Source: Alphaproteobacteria bacterium
Lineage (GTDB): Bacteria > Pseudomonadota > Alphaproteobacteria > Sphingomonadales > SMXR01
DNA: 33,389 nt
Assembly: GCA_030634465.1 (NCBI GenBank)
Contig: DAOWAS010000009.1
Location: 1-33,389 of the forward strand
Reading direction: 5' to 3'
The stretch's first letter is position 1. Each line of letters starts with the position of its first letter. The notes under the pieces are model-generated. The model did not search any database and had not been told where the DNA came from. It saw nothing but the letters and a program-made list of their open reading frames with translations. Positions 12,470-18,467 of this stretch are shown piece after piece. A program made the translations under genes and the position numbers.

Positions 12470-13306
12470 CTAAACACCACCATAAGCCGTGGCATCCATG
12501 GCTGATGGCACGTAGATACCTCTTTGACCCTTAACAGGTTTGAAGTGATCTGAAATACCCAAAACAGTTTCAGCCGCACCAAGGAACAATGAGCCATCAT
12601 TGGAAATTACATTGCTTACCCGACCTAGAACCTCTGTTTTTGTAGGTTGGTCAAAATAAATCAACACATTTCGGCAAAATACAATGTCAAAAGGACCTTT
12701 GTTCTTAAATGGCTCTAACAAGTTCATATATTCGAACTTAACCATGCTTTTAATGTCTTCATTTAAGAACCAGCCATCGCTTTCCTGACGGAAATATTTC
12801 ATCATCATTTGAATTGGCAAACCTCTTTGCACTTCAAACTGTGAATATCTGGCCTCTCTGGCCTTATCTATAATTTTGTTTGAAATATCTGTGGCATGGA
12901 TTTCAATATCCCAACCATTCCAAAGATGAGACTGCTCTTTCAAAATCATCGCAATTGAGTATGGCTCTTGGCCTGATGATGCCGCCGCACACCAAATGCG
13001 TAGTTTTTTGCTATCTCTATTCTTGTTTAAAAATGGCAAAACATGCTTTTTCAATATGTCGAAAGGTGTGTTGTCGCGGAAGAAAAAGCTTTCATTTGTG
13101 GTCATGGCATCGGTGACCTCATCAACAAGCTTGGCATCACGAGATGTGCGAACCTTATCGATAAGCTGGTCTAAACTTTCCAAGCCATGGGATCTGGCTA
13201 ATGGAGTTAGACGGCTTTCTAACAAATAGACCTTATCAGGGTTAACAACTAACCCCGACTTCCTCTTCAGAAGGTCTCTCATAAATTCAAAATCTTCGGG
13301 TTTCAA
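12470..13306 (-). CDS. cheR: Chemotaxis protein methyltransferase CheR
   Basis: CheR methylates glutamates of chemoreceptors using S-adenosylmethionine and so sets adaptation. The 278 residues have the N-terminal helical domain (KRKSGLVVNPDKVYLLESRL), the TTNESFFFRD motif at about 69-78, the SAM-binding block RIWCAAASSGQEPYSIAM (103-120) and the catalytic-domain motif FCRNVLIYF (210-218). All are standard. The ATG overlaps the cheB stop by four bases (ATGA). It is the last gene of the minus-strand che cluster and convergent with ctrA, whose stop codon is 32 bases away. Confidence 0.95.
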   Translation of the reverse strand: MKPEDFEFMRDLLKRKSGLVVNPDKVYLLESRLTPLARSHGLESLDQLIDKVRTSRDAKLVDEVTDAMTTNESFFFRDNTPFDILKKHVLPFLNKNRDSKKLRIWCAAASSGQEPYSIAMILKEQSHLWNGWDIEIHATDISNKIIDKAREARYSQFEVQRGLPIQMMMKYFRQESDGWFLNEDIKSMVKFEYMNLLEPFKNKGPFDIVFCRNVLIYFDQPTKTEVLGRVSNVISNDGSLFLGAAETVLGISDHFKPVKGQRGIYVPSAMDATAYGGV

Positions 13307-14502
13307 AGTTTAGCCCCCAATATTAGTTGTCCCACTGCTGGGCCCAACTCGTCTAACGGTAAAACACTGCTGCATATTCCCGCAACAGCAACACTTCCTG
13401 GCATTCCCCAAACTACACTTGTTTCCTCGTCCTGAGCCACAAGCGTTCCGCCAGCTTCTACTATTTTTCTACTACCTTCTAAACCGTCATGACCCATGCC
13501 TGTTAATATAACAGATAGTGTTTTTGCGCCATAAATACTGGCAATACTACGAAACATTGGATCAACCGCAGGTCTACAAAAGTTTTCCTGAGCATCTTGG
13601 TTAAGGCGAATACGTACCACATCATGCTCTTTTCTCAAAACCATATGATGATCCCCAGGTGCAACATAAATTACACCAGGTTTAACCCGCTCACCCTCAA
13701 TGCCTTCGTGGGCATCTTTACCAGTAGCTTTGCTTATATGTTGAGCCAAAATAGAGGTAAATGATGGTGGCATGTGCTGGGTTATAACTACAGGAATATC
13801 AAGAAAACCCTTAGCTTGCGTCAAAAACTTAACCAATGCTTGCGGACCACCTGTTGAAGCACCAATTGCCATAATTTCTGGCTTCAGTTTTGATGCAGCT
13901 TTCAGCTTAATTTCAGATGATGCACCCTCAACACTTTTAAACAAGTGCAAGCTGCTGGTTTTTGTTTGCGGCGTTTTTGTAAATGGTCTGGCATCTTCAG
14001 CAGCACCCATTGTTGGCAGCTCTTCACCCCTTTGCTTACGGCGGGTTGAGGCCAGCGCCTTAACTTTTGTAATAAGTTCATGGCGAAAGTTTACCCGTGA
14101 GGTAACATCGCGGTTGCTTTCAGGTTTTGGCACATAATCAGCCGCACCTAGACCAAGCGCTTTAATGCTAATTTCAGCATTTCTTTTTGTAAGCGATGAT
14201 GCCATGAGAATTTGCAGGTCTGGAACGGCCTTTTTCAACAATGGTAAAGCGGTTAAACCGTCCATAACTGGCATTTCAATATCCAGAAGAACAACCTCGG
14301 CATCTGAACTAACAACACTGTTTAATGCCATTTGGCCATTACTGGCAGTGCCTACAACACTAATATTATCATCTTCTTCCAGCCAACGAGAGATAAAGCC
14401 CCTAATTACGGCGCTATCATCAACGACAAGCACACGAAAAGGGTTTGATGTCCCTGCTCCGTCTTTTTTGTTTTTATTAATCTGACCAGTGACGCTTGAC
14501 AC
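13303..14502 (-). CDS. cheB: Chemotaxis protein-glutamate methylesterase CheB
   Basis: CheB removes methyl groups from chemoreceptors and opposes CheR. Phosphorylation of its receiver by CheA activates it. The 399 residues have a receiver with Asp28-Asp29 and phosphoacceptor Asp74 (VVLLDIEMPVMDG). A linker of about 60 residues follows, then the esterase domain with the catalytic triad Ser216 (AIGASTGGP), His243 (TQHMPPSFT) and Asp339 (LTGMGHDGLEG). It starts at a GTG (14502) that directly follows the cheY TAA, and no alternative ATG is near. The distance from the AGGG upstream is rather long, so translation may depend on coupling to cheY. Confidence 0.95.
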   Translation of the reverse strand: MSSVTGQINKNKKDGAGTSNPFRVLVVDDSAVIRGFISRWLEEDDNISVVGTASNGQMALNSVVSSDAEVVLLDIEMPVMDGLTALPLLKKAVPDLQILMASSLTKRNAEISIKALGLGAADYVPKPESNRDVTSRVNFRHELITKVKALASTRRKQRGEELPTMGAAEDARPFTKTPQTKTSSLHLFKSVEGASSEIKLKAASKLKPEIMAIGASTGGPQALVKFLTQAKGFLDIPVVITQHMPPSFTSILAQHISKATGKDAHEGIEGERVKPGVIYVAPGDHHMVLRKEHDVVRIRLNQDAQENFCRPAVDPMFRSIASIYGAKTLSVILTGMGHDGLEGSRKIVEAGGTLVAQDEETSVVWGMPGSVAVAGICSSVLPLDELGPAVGQLILGAKL

Positions 14503-14868
14503 TTATATTAACCCTACTTGTGAAAATTTAGATTCAATAATTTCTCGGTCGAAAGGTTTCATGATGTATTCATCAGCACCTGCTTCCATAGCCGTTCTAA
14601 TGTGAGCCATGTCATTTTCAGTGGTACAAAAAACCACCTTGGGCTGATTAACACCACTTAAAGCCCGCAATGCTCTTAGAAAATCAATGCCAGACATAAC
14701 AGGCATGTTCCAATCCAACAGCACAACATCTGGCATGTTAATTTTACATTGATCTAGAGCGTCCTGACCATCAACCGCTTCGTTGGTGTCAAAACTCAAT
14801 TCGTCTAGGATGCGCCTTGCAACCTTACGAATTACTTTAGAATCGTCCACTACCAAACAAGACCTCAT
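14503..14868 (-). CDS. cheY: Chemotaxis response regulator CheY
   Basis: This is a single-domain receiver of 121 residues that should carry the signal from CheA to the flagellar switch (FliM/FliN). Asp8 and Asp9 form the acidic pocket, Asp52 in VVLLDWNMP is the phosphoacceptor, Thr82/Thr83 lie at the switch threonine position, and Lys104 is in IMKPF. There is no output domain. It lies between cheW and cheB, close to both, and the receiver of the hybrid CheA may compete with it for phosphate. In alphaproteobacteria a cluster CheY can be the motor-binding protein or a phosphate sink, and the sequence alone does not decide. Confidence 0.92.
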   Translation of the reverse strand: MRSCLVVDDSKVIRKVARRILDELSFDTNEAVDGQDALDQCKINMPDVVLLDWNMPVMSGIDFLRALRALSGVNQPKVVFCTTENDMAHIRTAMEAGADEYIMKPFDREIIESKFSQVGLI

Positions 14869-14905: not shown

Positions 14906-15385
14906 TTATGCTGCGTCTGAAATGTCAAAATCCAACAAGGTATCTACCTCTAGAACAACAAGTAGTTCTTTTTCCAATCGGTAAACCCCGCCACACACTG
15001 CCCGCAATCTATCATCAAGAGTAACGGGACTTTTTTCATAGTCATCATCTGGCAGAGATACAACCTCGCCAACACTGTCTATTAACAAGCTATACGGCTC
15101 GCCTTTATGCTCAACCACAACACTCATAAAGGTATCATCTTCCCCGCGAGGGGCAAAACCTAAATGTACCCTAAGGTCAATAGCAGTAACAATGCGCCCG
15201 CGCAAGTTTAACACACCAGCCACTGAAGGAGGGGCTAGAGGAATTTTAGTCATTTTCTGAGCATTTAAAACATCATGCACATCCAACACTGGAATGCCCA
15301 ACAATTGCCCTGCCAAGTTTATGGTTACAAACTCACGAGAAGAGCCATCAACATCGGCTACGCCATCTGTATATCCGTCGCTCAT
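14906..15385 (-). CDS. cheW: Chemotaxis coupling protein CheW
   Basis: CheW is the adaptor that links chemoreceptors to CheA in the signalling array. The 159 residues form one CheW domain: FVTINLAGQLLGIPVLDVHDVL, then the conserved LAPPSVAGVLNLRGRIVTAIDLR and SLLIDSVGEVVSL. The N-terminal 15 residues are an acidic extension. The ATG overlaps the cheA stop by four bases (ATGA), so the two are probably translationally coupled. CheA here itself ends in two CheW-like domains, so this cluster supplies three CheW folds. Confidence 0.95.
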   Translation of the reverse strand: MSDGYTDGVADVDGSSREFVTINLAGQLLGIPVLDVHDVLNAQKMTKIPLAPPSVAGVLNLRGRIVTAIDLRVHLGFAPRGEDDTFMSVVVEHKGEPYSLLIDSVGEVVSLPDDDYEKSPVTLDDRLRAVCGGVYRLEKELLVVLEVDTLLDFDISDAA

Positions 15386-18300
15386 GCTGCATCCTCCTTG
15401 TTTTTCAACTGTTGAGTTAGAGTGTGAAGCAATGCATCACGATCAAATTTTGGCACATAATCGTTAAAGCCAGCTTTACGACCACGGTCGAAATCTTTTT
15501 CACTGGTCAGGTTTGTTAAAGCAACCAGTGGAGTAGATTTCCAACGATCATCGCCCTTAATGCTTTCTGCCAGTTCAAAGCCACTCATACCAGGCATTTC
15601 AATGTCGCTGATAATCAGGTCAAACGTTGCACCATCTTCCCTTAGTTTAAGGGCATCTGACGCATTTGACGCTGTTGTTACACCATAACCAGATGATGAC
15701 AATAATGGTTTCAACATGTTTCTAAAAAACGAACTGTCATCGATTAAAAGCACAGAAACATTTGAAACAATTTCAGTTTTTTGCGCTGCTTTATCCGCAA
15801 GCCTGTCGGCAAATGCGACATCCATATAATGGGCAACATCTATCATCTCGGTTGCTTTTTTGGCAATAACGCCTGAACCAACCACACCAGCTGTGCCTGA
15901 TGTTAGCTCAACCTCAAGCCTGTCTTCGATAATGTCATCAATTTCATCAACTGCCAGACCCATTGTGCGCTCACCATCAGTAAACACAATAACTGGCTGA
16001 CGGCCACTTTCTTTTATGTGGCACTCATCATTCATAACCACTAGGGGCATTAAAGCACCACGATATTGAACCACGGAATGAACATCTGTTTGTTCAATTC
16101 GCTCTACTTCAATATCTTCCAGTCTGGCTACCAATGACAATGGAACTGCCTTCTGGTTTGTATTTCCAGCATGGAACACCAGAATTGTTTCTGTTTCACT
16201 TACTGTTGATGCTTGCTCATCTGTACCTTTGCCAGCCTCGGCATTAGAAACATTAGCGTTTGCCAGTTCAGATATACCATTTGGATCAAGGATCATAATA
16301 ACCGTGCCATCGCCCAAAATAGTGTTACCTGAATAAATTGACATATCTTTCAACAATGGAGCCACTGGCTTAACCACAATTTCTTCTGTGTCGAAAACCT
16401 GATCAACCACAATGCCGAATGTGAAAGCACCAACTTGTGTCACCACAATAAACTGGTCTGATTTCAAAGCCTCATCGCTATGCGCCTCTTCGGTGGCATA
16501 ACCCAAAGCTTCGTTTAAGAACACTAATGGCAACAGCGCATTTCTCAAACGCAACACTGGTGTGTCTTTAATTTTCTCAATAGCATATTCGGTTCTTGAG
16601 GATGCCCGAACCAGTTCCAGAACACTAATTTGCGGAATAGCAAAACGTTGACCTGTAGCTTCCACAATCATGCCAGAAACAATAGCAAGAGTTAGCGGTA
16701 TTTTAATGGAAAGGCTTGTGCCCTTGCTCTCTTCAGATTTCAAATCAATAGTGCCGCCAATTTGCTCAATATTGGTACGCACCACATCCATACCCACACC
16801 ACGACCAGAAACATTTGTCACCTTCTCAGCAGTTGAGAAGCCAGGGTGGAATATTAATTTTTGAATTTGGGCGTCTGACATAGCTTCAATTTCAGAAGCA
16901 GGATACAGCTCTTTTTCCAAAGCTTTTTTGCGTAACTTGGCAACTGGTAGTCCCTTACCATCATCCACAATTTGAATAATGATATGCCCACCTTCGTGGA
17001 AGGCGTTCAGGGTTATGGTGCCTTTTTCAGGCTTGCCAACGGCCAAACGTTCCGCAGGCATTTCCACACCATGGTCGGCTGAGTTGCGTACCATATGAGT
17101 AAGTGGGTCTTTAATCAGCTCTAGCACCTGACGGTCAAGCTCGGTTTCAGCACCGTTCATAACCAGATCAATTTGCTTGCCTAGGTCAACTGACAAATCG
17201 CGAACAATTCTAGGCAGTTTGGCCCACGCATTACCAATTGGTTGCATGCGGGTTTTCATAACCCCTTCTTGCAGTTCGGTTGTACACTGGCTTAAACGCT
17301 GAAGCGGCACAGCAAATTCGCTATCATCTGCCTGTCTTAGCATTTGCATAAGCTGGTTTCTGGTTAGAACCAACTCGCTTACCATGTTCATAAGGTCTTC
17401 CAACAGGTCAACATTAACCCGAATAGACTGGGTGCGACCGCCACCCGCAGCTTTATCTTTTTTCTTGGTATCGCCACCTTTGCTAGATGCGCCCAATTCT
17501 TCAGACTTGGCAATCATTGCATCACCTATAACGTCTAGTTCAGGGGCAACCTCATCAACCACTTCCTTGCTAGCACCAACCTCTTGCAAAACATTTTTCA
17601 GCTCGTCAACCAGTTCACCAAACTGATCCTGACCAAAACCTGCTCCGGCAATACAGCCCTTAGCTATAGTAGCGGCGCTATCATCATTTCCCTGAAGAAC
17701 AGCCGTCAACATGCCGTTGCAACGGTCTTTCAAATCTTTCTCAAAAAACTGACCAAGACCTTTGCTGTTCTCTAAACGGTTGGAAATTAGGTGCGAGGCA
17801 ACTGAAATTGAATCTTCACCGCCACATCTGTCAAACAACGAACCTTCAGACACTGCGGCTACTGCGGCCACTGCGGGCGCTGTGGCATCGCTTGAACTAT
17901 CATCATCAGGGCCAGGGGCATTTTGAAATGCTGCTTCCAGCTCATCCATTGAAACCTCACCCGGACGCAGGTCTTCTTCTTTTTCAGGTACAATAATGTC
18001 AGGAATTACCATTTCTGGCTCAGCTGCTACAACTTTGCCATCATTTAATATGATATCATCCAGCTTCTGAATAAGCGGGCGGTCGTCACCCTTGGGCTCT
18101 TCTTCGGTTTCTTCCAAGTCAGCCAAGATGCTTTTAATACGATCAAGACTTTCTAGAATAACGGTTACACTATCAGATGTAACATCAAGCTCGCCATCAC
18201 GAAACTTGCCCAAAACATTTTCTGCGGCATGGGCCACTTTTTCCAAGCGGGGCAACCCTAAGAAACCACAAGTACCTTTAATGGTATGCACCAGTCTAAA

Positions 18301-18417
18301 AATATTGTCCAAAACGCTCTTGTTGTTTGGATCCTGCTCCAATTCAACAAGTTGCACATCAACTTCTTCAATACTTTCAAATGTTTCAGTTAGAAACTCA
18401 TTAAGAAGATCATCCAT
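15382..18417 (-). CDS. cheA: Hybrid chemotaxis histidine kinase CheA with globin-like insert and receiver
   Basis: CheA phosphorylates CheY and CheB. I start it at ATG 18417 (MDDLLNEF..., 1011 residues) because AGGTG lies just upstream and homologues begin this way. The frame extends to 18447. Domains, numbered from this start: Hpt with phosphoacceptor His44 (VHTIKGTCGFLG); an acidic linker; a truncated-haemoglobin-like segment at about 193-305; the dimerisation helices at about 330-400; the ATPase with N box near 445 (HMVRNSADHG), G1 DDGKG at 485-489 and G2 GRGVG at 538-542; a CheW-like domain at about 580-725; a second, more divergent one at about 745-870; and a receiver at about 887-1000 with Asp938. 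A classical P2 CheY-binding domain is not recognisable. It is much longer than E. coli CheA (654 residues). A 270-base leader separates it from chpT. Confidence 0.95.
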   Translation of the reverse strand: MDDLLNEFLTETFESIEEVDVQLVELEQDPNNKSVLDNIFRLVHTIKGTCGFLGLPRLEKVAHAAENVLGKFRDGELDVTSDSVTVILESLDRIKSILADLEETEEEPKGDDRPLIQKLDDIILNDGKVVAAEPEMVIPDIIVPEKEEDLRPGEVSMDELEAAFQNAPGPDDDSSSDATAPAVAAVAAVSEGSLFDRCGGEDSISVASHLISNRLENSKGLGQFFEKDLKDRCNGMLTAVLQGNDDSAATIAKGCIAGAGFGQDQFGELVDELKNVLQEVGASKEVVDEVAPELDVIGDAMIAKSEELGASSKGGDTKKKDKAAGGGRTQSIRVNVDLLEDLMNMVSELVLTRNQLMQMLRQADDSEFAVPLQRLSQCTTELQEGVMKTRMQPIGNAWAKLPRIVRDLSVDLGKQIDLVMNGAETELDRQVLELIKDPLTHMVRNSADHGVEMPAERLAVGKPEKGTITLNAFHEGGHIIIQIVDDGKGLPVAKLRKKALEKELYPASEIEAMSDAQIQKLIFHPGFSTAEKVTNVSGRGVGMDVVRTNIEQIGGTIDLKSEESKGTSLSIKIPLTLAIVSGMIVEATGQRFAIPQISVLELVRASSRTEYAIEKIKDTPVLRLRNALLPLVFLNEALGYATEEAHSDEALKSDQFIVVTQVGAFTFGIVVDQVFDTEEIVVKPVAPLLKDMSIYSGNTILGDGTVIMILDPNGISELANANVSNAEAGKGTDEQASTVSETETILVFHAGNTNQKAVPLSLVARLEDIEVERIEQTDVHSVVQYRGALMPLVVMNDECHIKESGRQPVIVFTDGERTMGLAVDEIDDIIEDRLEVELTSGTAGVVGSGVIAKKATEMIDVAHYMDVAFADRLADKAAQKTEIVSNVSVLLIDDSSFFRNMLKPLLSSSGYGVTTASNASDALKLREDGATFDLIISDIEMPGMSGFELAESIKGDDRWKSTPLVALTNLTSEKDFDRGRKAGFNDYVPKFDRDALLHTLTQQLKNKEDAA
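17852..17878 (-). repeat. 9-bp tandem repeat in the cheA linker
   Basis: Three near-identical 9-base units (ACTGCGGCT, ACTGCGGCC, ACTGCGGGC on the + strand) encode the AVAAVAAV stretch just before the globin-like domain, a flexible Ala/Val-rich linker. Confidence 0.8.
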
Positions 18418-18467
18418 TATACACCTATTTAGTTGCCCGAAAGCCATACAGTCTGGCTATTATTTCA

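Follow-up and report, generated by a model that had tools for sequence, protein, structure and literature searches.

Globins have been described in several signalling systems that bear some likeness to the one reported here. The globin-coupled histidine kinase AfGcHK (PMC8697598) has a globin covalently joined to a histidine kinase, and both HemAT and a PAS- and Bac_globin-bearing MCP of Corallococcus coralloides (PMC6194562) use a globin as an input to the chemotaxis pathway. The non-haem globins of the RsbR stressosome (PMC6614362, PMC10900884) set a precedent for a signalling globin free of haem. The parts available to us of a survey of 13,673 CheAs (PMC10782961) describe this chemotaxis kinase as lacking a sensor domain and name P2, receiver and CheC/CheX as its auxiliary domains, with no mention of either globin or haem.

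Here, we analysed a stretch of 33,389 nucleotides from an alphaproteobacterial genome (contig DAOWAS010000009.1; hereafter the window), which carries a cheA gene. Judging from profile matches and a predicted structure, residues ~201–320 of the encoded CheA are a group I truncated haemoglobin (trHb) fold with its haem-ligand residues lost. AfGcHK carries a haem-bearing globin of the globin-coupled-sensor type on a classical kinase, whereas the trHb of the window lies inside CheA, between the Hpt and dimerisation domains. Likewise, HemAT and the C. coralloides MCP have their globin in the receptor, whereas here it is in the kinase, and RsbR is a different protein of a different complex. We found no published account of a truncated globin, truncated haemoglobin or Bac_globin domain fused to CheA in the open-access literature. 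The architecture may be listed uncommented in domain databases, as PF01152 scores above its cut-off in many relatives.

The cheA gene and its neighbourhood

The gene lies on the reverse strand, in an ORF that opens at position 18447 and runs to 15382 (1,021 aa). The second ATG, at 18417, is the likelier start of cheA (15382–18417, 1,011 aa), because most homologues align only from around residue 11 of the ORF; this ATG is preceded by AGGTG. An original prediction, made from the DNA letters alone, had quoted peptides that are all present in this ORF, with a residue numbering consistent with a start at the second Met. The residue numbers given below are those of the 1,021-aa ORF.

The protein is arranged as Hpt, linker, globin, dimerisation, HATPase_c, CheW, CheW and receiver, and the CheA core is complete, as Hpt, H-kinase_dim, HATPase_c and CheW were all matched by Pfam. 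Hpt (P1; 18133–18411, residues 13–105; PF01627, E 7.1e-17 with the whole protein) bears the phosphoacceptor His within LVHTIKGTCGF. It is followed, beyond the linker and the globin, by H-kinase_dim (P3; 17251–17430, residues 340–399; PF02895), HATPase_c (P4; 16690–17109, residues 447–586; PF02518), a CheW-like domain (P5; 16270–16674, residues 592–726; PF01584) with a second CheW stretch after it, and a C-terminal receiver (15421–15753, residues 899–1009; PF00072). On the same strand are genes for CheW (14906–15385; PF01584), which overlaps the end of cheA, a single-domain CheY-like receiver (14503–14868; PF00072), CheB (13303–14502; PF01339 and PF00072) and CheR (12470–13306; PF01739 and PF03705). 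Beyond these che genes lie fliJ and a gene for a T3SS/flagellar-type ATPase.

A truncated globin fold between Hpt and the dimerisation domain

The inserted domain spans positions 17488–17847 of the reverse strand (residues 201–320). The original prediction had recognised a trHb-like segment in this CheA and drawn its extent slightly too small; it had rightly placed the segment between Hpt and the dimerisation domain, where P2 usually resides. P2 has an alpha/beta fold. The domain in the window, in contrast, is all-helical in the predicted structure, and no profile for P2, a CheY-binding domain or Hpt extends over it; the Pfam models for P2 and CheY-binding domains had no match anywhere in the protein up to E 10.

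As a single sequence, the segment gave no Pfam match, and Pfam and NCBIfam scans were unhelpful. Searched alone against the PDB, it reached group I trHbs at borderline E values (0.35–1.6), with matches collinear across the whole domain. The trHb order of elements read in the original prediction was borne out. Searching with the bare segment also retrieved a free-standing ORF of 130 aa from its own genome (E 5.6e-4), itself an ordinary PF01152 globin (E 3.4e-21), together with similar ORFs from relatives. Among the 39 CheA inserts collected, 25 were matched by PF01152, with those of L049, L060, L038, L067, L026 and L004 passing its cut-off (best 1.2e-20); the member of the window, on its own, was not matched. 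A profile built from all 39 inserts found HbN in the PDB at 1.3e-22, and one built from 25 haem-less relatives including the window domain found THB1 (3aq5) at 1.3e-11, with group I trHbs first; nearly all significant matches of both profiles were trHbs. Since the haem-less members by themselves retrieve group I trHbs, the globin call does not depend on the haem-competent ones. The lack of a significant PDB or Pfam match for the single sequence might suggest a helix bundle that converged on a globin by accident. This reading is effectively refuted by the profile E values, by their specificity for group I trHbs and by the presence of haem-competent orthologues at the same site.

The predicted structure supports the same identification. 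The AlphaFold (AF2) model of the segment has a pLDDT of 96.3 and meets the 2-on-2 globin fold, and the best ~31 of its Foldseek matches in the PDB are all trHbs (TM 0.71–0.75 for the best). The Foldseek E values, at 0.005 or worse, are only modest, as would fit a fold that has been remodelled. With group I trHbs (trHbN, PF01152; e.g., Tetrahymena pyriformis 3aq5 and Mycobacterium tuberculosis HbN 1idr) the domain shares the fold, the order of helices, the CD1 Phe and the AB-corner Gly-Gly (domain positions 9–10). It differs from them in residing inside a CheA kinase, in having no F8 His, B10 Tyr, E7/E11 Gln or EF Gly-Gly loop, and in its shortened F region. Other globin families fitted less well: the protoglobin/GCS sensor model PF11563 had no match in the window CheA and only weak ones in four of the 39 relatives (best 0.0026), far below the Bac_globin scores of the same relatives, and RsbR-type non-haem globins were not among the PDB matches of the 39- or the 25-member profile up to E 10.

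Loss of the haem-ligand residues

Positions were read against the Tetrahymena trHb, in which B10 Tyr25, E7 Gln46 and E11 Gln50 are named in PDB titles, while F8 His73 was taken from the alignment. The domain in the window has Ser at B10, Leu at E7, Cys at E11 and, according to the placement of a two-residue gap, Cys or Ile at F8; the original prediction had read Ile, with no His, which agrees within this uncertainty. The usual set in the order to which the window belongs is Ala or Ser at B10, Arg at E7, Phe at E11 and Leu at F8, and the sequence near F8 is two residues short. Across the haem-less clade, F8 itself is Leu, Ile, Met, Phe, Gly or Cys, and F8 His, B10 Tyr and E7/E11 Gln are absent from the window domain and from every relative seen in its order.

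The ligand residues appear to go together. Among 72 CheA globins, B10 Tyr occurs in 12 of the 13 with F8 His and in none of the 59 without (Fisher's test, 8e-13), and E11 Gln in eight of the 13 and one of the 59 (9e-7). These tests are uncorrected for relatedness; after correction on the tree only three well-supported independent pairs remained, all of which point in the same direction or show no difference.

One helix-B residue, His19 of the domain, is nearly invariant in the haem-less clade. Family f8 (L025–L027, L029, L030 and L040) has a haem-less CheA globin with a His at B10 in addition to the helix-B His (HLFHNR or HLLHNR), a pair that could possibly form an alternative metal or haem site. 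With no binding data at hand, these two histidines leave a non-standard site possible, and the domain in the window might still bind haem, another tetrapyrrole or a metal through such a ligand. We nevertheless regard this as quite unlikely, as (i) helix-B residues belong to the distal side, (ii) F8 shows no conserved His, Met or Tyr and the F region has lost two residues, and (iii) E11 is usually a bulky Phe that would fill the pocket.

Relatives with an F8 histidine

The question raised in the original prediction, whether CheAs with this insert ever have the F8 His, can be answered in the affirmative. At least seven further families of Alphaproteobacteria (f66, f88, f98, f102, f109, f120 and f130) have CheAs in which, as read from the sequences, the domain occupies the same site and carries F8 His, almost always along with B10 Tyr. 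The residue was found in L115, L117, L119, L131, L138, L143, L146, L147 and L152 as well as in L067, from a Rhodospirillales metagenome-assembled genome. The modelled domain of L115 superimposes on 3aq5 with TM 0.85–0.91 and an rmsd of ~1.5–1.6 Å at 42% identity; as modelled, the domain in the window is clearly less like a working trHb.

Two families have a second F8-His globin in CheA (residues 709–833 in L152/L197 and 657–781 in L143), inserted in a loop of the CheW-like P5 between ...LPLxSL..LGL and xFIVVxQVG. That of L143 groups with a stand-alone trHb (support 98/83), which suggests a separate capture. In family f112 (L151, L153 and L160), proteins of ~366–402 aa end in a globin-like domain whose F8 residue is Ser or Tyr. 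The genome of the window encodes two stand-alone trHbs with F8 His (G000:C44:2691-3032, L111; G000:C4:11081-11389, L112), and adjacent pairs of trHb genes recur in many family f193 genomes outside the class (e.g., G843, G864 and G789).

Within the order, 64 of 301 genomes had a match to the globin profile in a frame of at least 700 aa, a count in which the frames were not each confirmed as CheA and the profile derives partly from the same genomes; the largest family sampled (f5) had stand-alone globins only. A class-wide scan of 385 genomes yielded, besides that of the window, 20 with a confirmed CheA-globin fusion under 12 family codes. No such fusion was found outside the class among 399 phylum-wide genomes; the large frames with a globin match outside Alphaproteobacteria (L193–L196) proved not to be CheA. 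In Thalassospira, Azospirillum, Sneathiella and Bradyrhizobium, CheA lacks a globin and has just a low-complexity linker. The insert of L036/L204 (family f2), which is divergent and had no independent globin match, was excluded from the evidence.

Gain and loss of the globin and its haem ligands

With its few columns, the globin tree does not exclude one loss (p 0.22) or one origin (p 0.285), so we turned to a tree of the kinase core. There, F8-His and haem-less CheAs are intermingled: L067 (His) is sister to the haem-less f44 group (support 97), and L115 plus L131 (His) are sister to L148, which lacks the His (support 99), while the order of the window is haem-less throughout. The best kinase-core tree requires six changes of F8 state and eight of globin presence, and it rejects a single clade of globin-bearing CheAs (p 9e-5). 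Such a rejection is consistent with an early gain followed by losses, with more than one gain, or with transfer. At F8 the change is likely to have been a loss, because trHbs outside CheA nearly all have the His (21 of 25). The haem ligands were thus probably lost repeatedly, albeit both the direction and the number of losses are inferred.

We propose that a group I trHb was inserted into the Hpt-dimerisation linker of an alphaproteobacterial flagellar CheA. In lineages that keep the haem-ligand set, the domain probably binds haem, and CheA would sense O2 or NO directly. In the lineage of the window and several others, F8 His, B10 Tyr and E7/E11 Gln appear, from sequence and model, to have been lost together with the globin fold retained; the ancestor of the window CheA may thus have been a direct sensor of oxygen or nitric oxide. 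Taken as a whole, the explanation that a trHb gas sensor was captured, lost its haem and was kept as a regulatory or interaction module is the one that we moderately favour, its haem binding and function being inferred. A wider form of it must remain tentative, somewhat short of an even chance: CheAs with F8 His (the seven families above and L067) would bind haem and sense O2, NO or CO within the kinase, bypassing chemoreceptors, some through two globins (in the P2 place and the P5 loop), and repeated haem loss would have left a haem-free regulatory domain in lineages like that of the window.

A conserved linker motif and CheY docking

The linker upstream of the globin carries a conserved motif, DLRPGEVSMDELEAAFQNAPGPDD (17902–17973, reverse strand; residues 159–182), of the form [LR]xPGEVSxxELExAF..APGP. 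Other CheAs share it whether or not they have the globin, with two copies in some Sneathiella, and by eye, without scoring, the motif resembles the N-terminal repeats of FliM in the same genome (DDDAVAAEWAAM and RVLDQDEIDSLLGF). We infer that this short linear motif is a better candidate for CheY docking than the globin, and a possible substitute for P2. The CheA linkers of Magnetovibrio blakemorei (L101) and of a Rhodospirillaceae metagenome-assembled genome (L092) contain two to three repeats of GGFPVAAELLAEYEEATG.

The globin could instead have taken over the job of P2 as a docking platform for CheY and CheB; it sits in the P2 place with no P2 model matching, and a docking domain would pay nothing for losing haem. 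This appears unlikely to us. Many related CheAs have neither P2 nor the globin, so that neither is required, and the survey reports P2 to be missing from more than half of CheAs (PMC10782961). Because the separate FliM-like motif is common to globin-less CheAs, docking by the globin in the P2 sense is less likely than the original prediction implied. In the history that we prefer, CheY docking itself would proceed through the linker motif and/or P1.

Selection on the haem-less domain and its possible role

The haem-less domain is under purifying selection, weaker than that on the kinase. Its dN/dS is 0.05–0.10 for most of the pairs whose dS stays under about 1.2. These include L013/L014, L042/L168, L007/L185 and L114/L116, for which the kinase gives 0.01–0.03; over most comparable pairs the kinase value is 0.01–0.08. 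Some globin pairs have higher values (0.32–0.46), and a partial relaxation of selection is possible. If the domain were a decaying relic, i.e., a one-time gas sensor that persists merely as a tolerated spacer without specific function, it would be expected to evolve faster than the kinase, as it does, and to be missing entirely from some relatives, as it is from L044. Nevertheless, the low dN/dS in most close pairs, the confidently folded model, the retention of the domain across several families of the order and the new conserved polar positions that arose after haem loss make such a relic improbable.

For a captured trHb kept after haem loss, a regulatory or interaction role is inferred in the absence of functional data. 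Because the domain lies within the tether that holds the phosphodonor Hpt, a change of its shape or the binding of a partner could alter the reach of Hpt; today it would be a folded module through which a partner or a small ligand affects where Hpt lies relative to the kinase core.

A globin in CheA, haem-competent in several lineages and with its haem residues lost in others, would amount to a direct input to the core chemotaxis kinase. The CheA globins would also offer a natural series, in one protein and at one site, from a gas-sensing globin to a haem-free signalling domain.
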